Source: Rhodohalobacter mucosus
Lineage (GTDB): Bacteria; Bacteroidota; Rhodothermia; Balneolales; Balneolaceae
Direction: 5' to 3'
Length of the DNA: 64,000 bases
Assembly (NCBI RefSeq): GCF_003150675.1
Contig: NZ_QGGB01000003.1
Coordinates: 62,001-126,000, forward strand
Shown here: positions 37,037 through 40,283 of the stretch, one piece after another
Position numbering within the stretch: the first letter of the stretch is position 1
Layout: each line of letters starts with the position of its first letter
Program-made: the position numbers and the translations under genes
The notes under the pieces: generated by a model
The model's input: the letters and a program-made list of their open reading frames with translations, nothing else
Databases searched by the model: none
Told to the model about the DNA's origin: nothing

Positions 37037-37600
37037 ATGAAAATCGCGATAAAAAATATGGTTTGCCCACGCTGCATCGAATCGGTTGCCGGTATCCTTG
37101 CAGACATGTCTATTCCCGTGGAGGAAGTAGATCTTGGCTTTGCCCATACAGCCCGAAAACTAACGGATAATGAGCTGCATCTTCTTGACCAGAAACTTCT
37201 TTCAAAAGGTTTTGAAAGGGTTGAAGATCGTGAATCGGAGCTTGTGAACCTGGTGCGGGCGATGTTGATCCGGTACATTGATCATGTTGAGAATTCCGAG
37301 AATCCCAATAAACTTTCGGTATTTATTTCAGAGCATACCAGCTACAACTACTCCTACCTTAGTAACGTCTTTTCCGATCAGACGGGTATCACCATCGAAA
37401 CCTGCCTGATACGGCTGAAGATTGAGCGTGTGAAAGAACTACTGCATTTCAGAAAATGGACGCTGAGCGAAATAGCGTGGAAACTGAAATACAGCAGTGT
37501 GCAATATCTCTCCAACCAGTTTAAAAAAGTTACAGGCCAAACCGTTACTGAGTATCTCAGGGCCAACATATCGGGGCGCAAGGCTCTGGATCAGATTTAG
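37037..37600 (+). CDS. HMA-AraC one-component regulator, probably copper-responsive
   Basis: A 187-residue fusion. Residues 1-70 look like a heavy-metal-associated (HMA) ferredoxin fold with the metal-binding CPRC pair at residues 10-13. Residues of about 85-180 form an AraC-type double helix-turn-helix (SYLSNVFSDQTGITIETCLI and LSEIAWKLKYSSVQYLSNQF). The usual AraC sugar-binding domain is absent. Its place 218 bp before copA suggests it senses Cu(I) through the HMA domain and controls the copper genes. Sensing and target are inferred. Confidence 0.85.
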   Translation: MKIAIKNMVCPRCIESVAGILADMSIPVEEVDLGFAHTARKLTDNELHLLDQKLLSKGFERVEDRESELVNLVRAMLIRYIDHVENSENPNKLSVFISEHTSYNYSYLSNVFSDQTGITIETCLIRLKIERVKELLHFRKWTLSEIAWKLKYSSVQYLSNQFKKVTGQTVTEYLRANISGRKALDQI

Positions 37601-37818: not shown

Positions 37819-38259
37819 ATGAAAAAACGTATAACAATCGATGGCATGCACTGTGCAGGATGTGTGAACTCTGTTGAAAAGGCGATCCGGAAAGTTGATG
37901 GTGTACAGAACGTATCGGTACAGCTTACCACAGAGTCGGCGTCTATAGAATACGAAGGAGTTTTCCCTGCGGAGAAGGTTAAAAAGGCCGTCGAAAATGC
38001 CGGCTATGAACTTGCTGAAGATCCCGCCGTAAAAGAGGTTGCTTTCGATATTGAAGGAATGCACTGTGCTGGGTGCTCGGCTGCCGTTGAAAAAGCTGCG
38101 TTAAAAACAGAAGGGGTTACGGATGCAAATGTGAATCTTGCTACCAACAGGGCATTTATTAGCTTTGATCCCGGCCGGACTGACGCCGATGAAATTGCAA
38201 AGCGTATCGATGACGCCGGCTATTCTGTGGTTCGGCAAAAAAAAAAGAGAATAGGTTAG
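37819..38259 (+). CDS. copA: CopA N-terminal part: two heavy-metal-associated domains (in-frame product)
   Basis: A 146-residue product read from ATG 37819 to TAG 38257-38259. It holds two complete HMA domains of about 70 residues each, with GMHCAGC metal sites near residues 10 and 79. It ends RQKKKRIG right after an A10 tract. These are the two N-terminal metal-binding domains of a Cu(I)-exporting P-type ATPase whose membrane part follows in the -1 frame. Read alone the product is a plausible soluble two-domain copper chaperone like E. coli CopA(Z). The alternatives are a homopolymer sequencing error or a true frameshift mutation. Confidence 0.9.
38236..38259 (+). other. copA: Candidate -1 frameshift (recoding) site in copA
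   Basis: The zero frame reads CAA AAA AAA AAG and stops four codons later at TAG. The heptamer A AAA AAG (38241-38247) is in the exact phase needed for a -1 shift, the same slippery sequence used in E. coli dnaX. After slipping, reading continues as GAG AAT AGG into the catalytic part without a stop. The A10 run (38237-38246) could equally cause transcriptional slippage (A11 or A8 transcripts). I see no clear stimulatory stem-loop or upstream Shine-Dalgarno element. Confidence 0.6.
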
Positions 38260-40283
38260 AGGAGAAGAGGGAAAGAGAGGAAAAGAAGCTCTCGGATGCG
38301 CGTTCCCGGTTGACCAGAAGCTGGTTTGTCACGCTGCCGCTGATGATCTGGATGTTCCTGGAGATGATATTTGGGATCCATCTGCTGCCATCCCTGGCCA
38401 TGGAACTGATCATGATCGCGGGTGCCGGCTATGTGATTTTCGGCCCCGGCCTGCCAACCCTCAGGAGCGCTTTTCGTTCATCACTGAGCCTGACACCCAA
38501 TATGGACGTGCTCATTGCGCTGGGTACCCTCGCGTCACTCGCTACCGGCCTGATCGTGGTTGGTTCGGAACTGGGCCTGATTGAATCCCGCTTTTACAGT
38601 TTTACCGGCATTGCAGCAATGATCATGGCCTTCCACCTTACCGGACGATACATTGAAACCAAGGCCCGGGGCCGCGCTTCGGAAGCCATCACTAAGCTTC
38701 TCACTCTTGAGGCTAAAACCGCGCGGGTTATCAGGAACGGTGCGGAGAGAGAGGTACCTGTAAATGAACTTACGGTTGGCGATGTGGTGATTGTAAGGCC
38801 GGGTGAAACGATACCGGTGGATGGCGTAGTGGTGGATGGCAGAGCTTCCGTAGACGAATCGATGATGACCGGTGAGCCGTTGCCCGTGGTGAGAAAAGAG
38901 GGAGATGAGGTAATCGGAGGTACAATAAATGCGGAAGGATCCGTACGGGTGCAAACTGCCAGGCTGGGAGAAGATACATTCCTGAACAGGGTCGTCAGAC
39001 TGGTTGAAGATGCGCAGGCTTCAAGGGTGCCGATTCAGGATTTTGCCGACCGCATTACGGCAGTGTTTGTGCCCGTTATCCTGGTACTTTCACTTCTTAC
39101 CTTTACGGTATGGGTGCTTTTCCCAGAATCGATGCGAACTCTACTGCTATTTGCCGAAGGCGCAATTCCATGGATCATAACCGACCTTGATCCGGCCAGC
39201 CAGGCCTTTTTTGCCGCACTCGCGGTGCTTGTGATAGCCTGTCCCTGTGCATTGGGTCTGGCCACTCCCACAGCACTGATGGTGGGAAGCGGCCTGGGTG
39301 CTGAAAACGGAATTCTGATACGAAAAGGGGAGGCTATACAAAGGCTCAGTGAAGTAACTGCATTTGTATTCGACAAAACAGGCACTCTTACGGAAGGGAA
39401 ACCGGAAGTGGAGAAATGGGTCACAATCGAAGGGGATGAAAACCGGCTGAAAAAGCTCCTGGCCGCAGCTGAAAATTTCTCTGAACATCCAGTCAGCCGC
39501 GCAATCATTCGATACACGGGAACTGAACAGATGCCGGAAACAGACCAGTTCCAGTCGTTTACGGGAATGGGGGTGCAGGCCCTTGTTCAGAATAGCACCG
39601 TACTGGCAGGGAACGAAGACCTGATGAAGCAGTTCAATGTTGACCTTGATCGTGCCGTAAGTGATGAAGCCGATCGTCTGAAACAGAATGGATATACCAC
39701 GATTATCATGGCTGTGGATAACTCTGTGAAAGCACTGATCGGAGTAAGGGATGCAATAAAAAAAGAGACGCCCGCGATGATATCATCGGTCAGGCAAATG
39801 GGGTATAAAACCATGATGCTGACCGGTGATCAGGAGAAAGCGGCACGACAAATAGCAAACGAAGCTGGAGTGGATGAGGTTATTGCCGGGGTAAAACCAG
39901 ACCAGAAGGCATCCGTTATCCGCGATCTTAAAAAGAGCGGGAGCGTGGTCGCAATGGTTGGTGACGGAATCAATGACGCGCCTGCGCTCTCCGAAGCGGA
40001 TGTGGGTATAGCGCTGGGAACAGGAACAGACATTGCCATTGAGGCTGGAAGCATCATTCTGGTAGACGGAAATCCGGCGGGAATCGTCCGTGCTATCACT
40101 CTCAGCAGAGAGACCTTTAAAAAAATACGTCAAAACCTTTTCTGGGCTTTTTTCTACAATGTTGTGATGATTCCGGTAGCCGTTATCGGATGGATGCATC
40201 CTGTTCTTGCAGAAATTGCAATGGCGTTAAGTTCAATAAATGTAGTGGGTAATTCGAGAAGACTGCAGAAGAAAAAATTGTGA
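38247..40283 (+). CDS. copA: CopA catalytic part: Cu(I)-translocating P1B-type ATPase
   Basis: About 678 residues in the -1 frame relative to the HMA part. The frame begins at the slippery site and runs through a charged linker ([20 protein letters not shown]). The first usable start inside it is a TTG at 38310. It has eight expected membrane segments, the Cu-binding CPC motif ([16 protein letters not shown]), the actuator TGE in MMTGEPLP, the phosphorylated Asp in DKTGTLTEG, the HP motif in SEHPVSRAI, and the hinge [10 protein letters not shown]. Joined with the HMA part the enzyme is about 821 residues, the normal size for a two-HMA CopA that exports Cu(I) from the cytoplasm. Confidence 0.92.

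Follow-up and report, generated by a model that had tools for sequence, protein, structure and literature searches.

The copA gene of Escherichia coli reportedly gives both CopA and CopA(Z) through a -1 ribosomal frameshift, a result attributed to Meydan 2017 and Drees 2017. As described in PMC5009743, PMC7558416 and PMC9548414, CopA and CopA(Z) arise from E. coli copA by such a shift; the zero frame encodes the pump, the shift yields a 70-amino-acid protein with a single HMA domain and is assisted by a slippery sequence together with a pseudoknot and the nascent chain. The tssM1 gene of Citrobacter rodentium contains an A11 run at which about 20% of decoding shifts frame (PMC4256274). It is described as interrupted soon after the poly-A run, restored in frame by slippage, expressed as two length variants that were shown to be needed, and free of Shine-Dalgarno-like (SD-like) or structural stimulators. 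The absence of stimulators was argued there first, and slippage was then proved on RNA. The dnaX gene of Thermus thermophilus undergoes transcriptional slippage at an A9 tract (PMC1088944, PMC5009743), giving two products of one gene with nearby stops in the other frames. For E. coli dnaX, a sole tRNA-Lys(UUU) is given as the condition that makes the A_AAA_AAG site shift-prone for E. coli ribosomes (PMC5009743).

The copA gene of Rhodohalobacter mucosus lies at 37819-40283 on the plus strand of the window (the whole 64-kb stretch of DNA that was analysed) and is divided between two frames, with the HMA half in the zero frame and the pump half in the -1 frame. Feature coordinates are collected in Table 1. 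The zero frame extends from an ATG at 37819 to a TAG at 38257-38259, three codons past the A10 tract, for a total of 146 amino acids. The -1 frame is open from just past a TGA at 38211-38213 through to 40283, and a -1 reading at the tract gives a CopA of 821 amino acids. The zero-frame codons at the tract are CAA AAA AAA AAG AGA, which places A_AAA_AAG in the dnaX phase.

Table 1. Features of the copA locus, in window coordinates.
Feature	Position	Strand	Description
Upstream AraC-type regulator	37037..37600	+	187 aa; N-terminal CPRC motif (MVCPRC stretch)
copA zero-frame product	37819..38259	+	146 aa, two HMA domains, CopZ-like
Putative slippage site, A10 + G	38237..38247	+	A10 at 38237-38246, G at 38247; A_AAA_AAG at 38241-38247 in phase
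-1-frame CopA part, transmembrane and catalytic	38247..40283	+	678 aa and stop; above TIGR01511 and TIGR01525 cut-offs
-1-frame linker after the tract	38248..38309	+	protein-level selection in broken species

The Pfam HMA model matches the short product in two stretches. The short product scores above the NCBIfam cut-offs of NF033794 (110.3 versus 95), NF033795 (110.2 versus 91) and NF047957 (106.8 versus 85), and also passes that of TIGR00003. By sequence it belongs to the CopZ family, with two domains rather than one. The pump half scores 546 bits against the TIGR01511 cut-off of 397 and passes the TIGR01525 cut-off as well, which places it among the copper-translocating P-type ATPases (P1B type). 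Its second-half sequence contains readable TGE, CPC, DKTGT, HP and GDGINDAP stretches, which we take to be the motifs of those names. The first-pass annotation had described a copA split after two HMA domains with a -1 continuation, an A10 switch point with A_AAA_AAG in the E. coli dnaX phase, a 146-residue two-HMA protein on stopping, an 821-residue CopA on slipping, and intact catalytic motifs in the second half. The frame coordinates, the family scores and the -1-frame translation bear out this description.

Judged from the frames, the locus resembles E. coli copA in that one gene would give a pump and a small HMA-only copper carrier, with a -1 shift past the N-terminal HMA region. Unlike in E. 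coli, the zero frame encodes the short two-HMA form, the shift leads to the pump, the site is an A10 tract after the second HMA domain, and conservation of the kind expected of a pseudoknot was not found. The interruption soon after a poly-A run is shared with tssM1, which differs in gene and function and in having its slippage proved on RNA; copA is known here from sequence. The A9 tract of Thermus dnaX, with its two products, matches the in-frame congeners described below, whereas the zero frame of the window gene encodes the short form.

The gene was compared across 28 species of the genus, with the window genome as G000. Close copA orthologues comparable in both halves and the linker number 21, window included; a 22nd (G025), whose in-frame status was assigned by inspection of the contig carrying its N half, was added later. 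Partial orthologues are present in G024 (N half) and in G020 and G009 (C end), no copA match was found at the cut-off in G016, and G026 and G027, where contig ends truncate the locus, are absent from the tree. A -1 break is present in 13 of the 22 close orthologues (the window and 12 others), with a tract of A10G in 12 and A9G in one (G014). None of the breaks is +1. The pump halves of these broken orthologues are 67-71% identical to that of the window. When the 13 broken linkers are aligned (some rows of the alignment end early), the tract forms an almost invariant block amid variable sequence.

The remaining nine orthologues are in frame, each still with A9 or A10 in the linker. Five have A9G at the same place (G006, G012, G002, G013 and G003), two have A10T at the same place (G007 and G025), and two have A9G slightly downstream (G009 and G022). 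A run of at least nine A is present in the linker in all 21 orthologues scored, and in G025. The first-pass annotation had expected recoding to show as the same tract and the same frame break in relatives, and an uninterrupted frame to come with no tract. The first part holds in 13 of 22; the other nine are in frame yet keep the tract.

The genus orthologues form one clade (100/100). The best tree built without the linker contains four changes between the broken and in-frame states (3-4 in bootstraps), and a single clade of broken genes is also compatible with the data (p-AU 0.133). In three congeners (G011, G004 and G015) the only copA is a distant one (44% identity), which is in frame and has no run of nine. 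In other genera, 11 of 11 copA loci are in frame, and a long A run occurs in two (A10G in G097, and A9C further downstream in G033). The A10G of G097 (locus L144) lies in frame, past HMA2 and ahead of the membrane part, and a modelled one-base slip there gives products of 150 or 162 amino acids. From G097, the slippery-tract trait of copA may reach beyond the genus. Among the best 80 copA loci in a comparison with other phyla, 78 have an HMA match nearby, in the same frame in 76 of those 78. The two different-frame loci are L062, which belongs to the window genus (G010 contig), and L066. In L066, from a Candidatus Falkowbacteria MAG, the HMA match precedes the ATPase part by 143 bases and is in another frame, and a long homopolymer was not noted; this match is perhaps a separate chaperone gene.

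The -1 linker was examined between the run and the start-like codon that lies ahead of the first membrane segment. Pooled over the 13 broken species, pS is 0.891, pN is 0.264 and pN/pS is 0.296, compared with pN/pS of 0.251 in the ATPase body and 0.423 in the HMA part of the same species; synonymous sites are near saturation in these values. The HMA-pump fusion is evidently made, because linker residues under protein-level selection in the -1 frame imply ribosomes that enter from the HMA part.

The run itself is concentrated in the linker. Runs of at least nine A number 23 in the linkers of the 21 copA genes and zero in the other 47.8 kb, with two in the flanks, for a linker interval chosen with the runs already known. 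In 18 of the 19 species with a junction run, the codon preceding the lysines has A as its last base, compared with a frequency of 0.04-0.44 for codons of this kind across these genes; the exception is G012 (GTT), and the list of 18 codons was likewise drawn up with the runs known. An A-ending codon at this position makes the run longer than a heptamer needs. With amino acids and codon use taken into account, a run of at least A9 has a probability of 0.06-0.59 per species; multiplying the highest values from each of 11 clades gives 2e-5. Other KKK triplets occur 11 times in 19 of these genes. Eight are outside the linker, none of them encoded as at least A9, and three are extra triplets within the linker, two of which are A9 (sister pair G006/G012). 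This second A9 of G006 and G012 (L009 and L014) is in frame, about 30 bases past the start of the C half.

Transcripts were modelled in which the run had lost or gained one or two bases. With such slips, broken and in-frame genes end up with the same pair of products. Eleven broken species have a complete two-HMA N half; their templated run length gives 144-152 amino acids, and one extra A gives 821-829 amino acids in the 10 of these in which the gene is complete. For six in-frame species whose run lies at the same place, the product is 822-825 amino acids at the templated length and 141-148 after any slip of one or two bases. This is the arrangement of products in E. coli copA. G005 copA has one HMA domain and a short form of 82 amino acids, close to the 70 reported for E. 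coli. The modelled products of G022 (L024) are meaningless due to an in-frame TGA inside HMA1, and its N part is either interrupted or mis-sequenced. The default product has probably been swapped between related species, from short form to pump or the reverse, as read from their frames.

Taken together, copA is very probably one gene decoded in two ways by recoding of some kind, and both protein products would be present in cells. The earlier proposal of a CopZ-like protein and a full CopA from this gene is strongly supported by the shared break and the selected linker. In the proposed mechanism, standard reading would end past the A10 tract and give the two-HMA CopZ-like copper carrier, while a fraction of decoding would move to -1 at the tract and give the full pump of about 821 amino acids. 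The slip is attributed to RNA polymerase rather than to the ribosome: an A would be added on the run, and some of the transcripts would then be translated normally into the pump. In the in-frame A9 or A10 congeners, slippage of this kind would instead yield the short protein. We judge transcriptional slippage to be probably the main route. It had been named as a possible mechanism in the first-pass annotation and is now ranked first, above ribosomal slippage, although both may contribute.

The conserved feature is a run of at least nine A, not the phase of the dnaX heptamer. A_AAA_AAG is in phase in seven of the 13 broken genes and 13 of the 21 orthologues overall, with A_AAA_AAA in phase in the rest. 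Run phases 2, 1 and 0 occur in 12, eight and one of the 21 orthologues, and the broken genes show phases 1 and 2. The early emphasis on the dnaX heptamer is thus correct for the window gene and does not extend to its relatives, where the run and not the phase is kept. Insertion at A7-A11 runs is at least twice as efficient as deletion, as cited in PMC6260861, and this preference would explain why only -1 breaks have persisted.

A programmed -1 frameshift of the ribosome on A_AAA_AAG or A_AAA_AAA within the tract would also yield the full pump, with the same products overall. We regard it as rather unlikely, though it is the most substantial of the alternatives. The heptamer is in phase in the window, some lysine heptamer is in phase in 21 of 21 orthologues, all 13 breaks have the -1 direction that ribosomal slippage predicts, and E. 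coli copA is described as making its two proteins by a -1 frameshift (PMC7558416). As in the E. coli dnaX case, the only tRNA-Lys found is UUU, among 40 tRNA matches in the genome (150 of 190 first-look candidates scored). Polymerase slippage would be further disfavoured by some stable folds and by the lower readiness of E. coli RNA polymerase to slip on A than on T runs (PMC6260861). Single folds downstream of the tract in 12 of the 13 broken species (G021, nearly identical to G001, was left out) are mixed, with z from -2.99 to 1.05; the window sequence (-1.55) folds slightly better than shuffled sequence, and two other species clearly do so (z of -2.99 and -2.45).

Against the ribosomal reading stand the variable heptamer phase and the failure to find conserved stimulators, both of which separate copA from E. 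coli dnaX. No consensus RNA structure was found across the 13 broken sequences with folding programs that do not predict pseudoknots, and no conserved stem-loop like that of dnaX was found. A conserved upstream Shine-Dalgarno-like site was not found, a short motif of this kind being present in only four of 21 orthologues. Synonymous conservation near the tract is not raised (0.433 versus a mean of 0.409, sd 0.035; 173 of 666 windows are higher).

The A10 of copA is the sole A or T run of at least nine in the window (lengths 6-13 counted), and the 3.9 Mb genome has seven sites with at least 10 A in a row. Many bacterial genomes are described as showing selection against A or T runs from a length of nine on (PMC1088944). 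Avoidance is not strict here, since in-frame A9 runs lie inside several long open frames elsewhere in the genome (L204, L208, L214, L215, L223, L226 and L231, for example). Among the sites with at least nine A, 37 of 59 were read (7 of 7 with at least A10 and 30 of 52 with A9), and only copA is a convincing split. On visual inspection, two frame pairs at other A runs (L216 and L227) seem spurious. Other A9-bearing genes may also give truncated by-products if the polymerase slips efficiently in this organism.

A true split, with a separate HMA protein and an HMA-less ATPase made from an internal or coupled start such as the TTG at 38310, is very improbable. A start-like codon is present at this place in the window, an ATG or GTG occupies the matching codon in 11 of 12 other broken species, and a purine-rich sequence lies upstream. 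However, the residues between the tract and this codon are under protein-level selection in the -1 frame, and the same methionine occurs in in-frame relatives, so that it need not be a start. Eleven of the 13 broken species have 21-24 codons in the -1 frame before the first ATG, GTG or TTG, and the other two, G001 and G021, have 15. In G021 the matching place lacks a start codon and a TTG occurs earlier; the window linker has none of the three codons before the TTG at 38310. A plain split also leaves the retained A run unexplained. Internal initiation is disfavoured on these points and may be a minor source of ATPase.

Phase variation, in which replication slippage toggles full-length CopA and the assemblies caught different states, has an equally slight chance of being correct. 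A homopolymer tract is present and both states exist in the genus, but all 13 breaks are -1 and none +1, the tract is exactly A10 in 12 of 13, the close pair G001/G021 agrees, and in every broken species the linker downstream of the run shows adaptation to the -1 frame. A homopolymer sequencing or assembly error, named in the first-pass annotation as the main alternative, would fit the error-prone nature of such runs and is effectively excluded by a break common to the assemblies of 13 species (A10G in 12) and by the selected linker, as is a recently decayed gene by the strong selection on the pump part.

The short form is put forward as a copper chaperone on the basis of its family and of the HMA gene content of the genomes. 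In the window genome (97% complete), a PF00403 search gave two matches, both in copA, and found no stand-alone CopZ. In 20 of 20 congeners with a junction run, window included, HMA matches occur only in copA, which fits a chaperone role for the short form. The run-less congeners G011, G004 and G015 have HMA matches in short frames of 81-111 amino acids (frame lengths of putative genes). Absence of a separate CopZ was tried as a predictor of the run and holds only in part, failing in four relatives of other genera (G095, G028, G099 and G101). These are run-less and have two HMA matches each, inside copA in G095, G028 and G101 and, for G099, with one of the two inside copA among the matches listed; no stand-alone CopZ match is among those listed for any of the four. 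The short form is thus not needed everywhere.

The AraC-type regulator upstream of copA is present at 19 of 21 congeneric loci and 9 of 11 loci of other genera, and at 0 of 3 loci of the distant congeners. Its MVCPRC stretch is metal-binding-like, and Pfam does not call it HMA. The regulator is a possible copper sensor and regulator of copA, and the recoding does not require it.

That copA can supply both a chaperone and a pump is already known in E. coli; the signal and the reversal of roles differ. In titles and abstract openings among the open-access papers listed by full-text searches, no description of transcriptional slippage or of a conserved homopolymer break in copA was found. The main text of the GeneTack survey (PMC3711429) contains no occurrence of ATPase, copper or heavy metal. 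We lean towards the view that the production of chaperone and pump from one gene arose a second time, by RNA polymerase slippage, in this genus of the Balneolaceae, with the tract length modulo 3 flipping the default product while both are kept.

A gene caller blind to recoding would report two genes at this locus and a pump without its metal-binding domains. The in-frame A9 and A10 genes, the broken A9 and A10 genes, and the one-HMA and two-HMA forms make up a natural comparative series for the chaperone-to-pump ratio. If the proposed reading is true, copA would parallel dnaX in the interchangeable use of two mechanisms, and the tract would tune the chaperone-to-pump ratio over evolution. The one-gene arrangement of chaperone and pump would then be selected strongly enough to have arisen by different decoding signals in distant bacteria.
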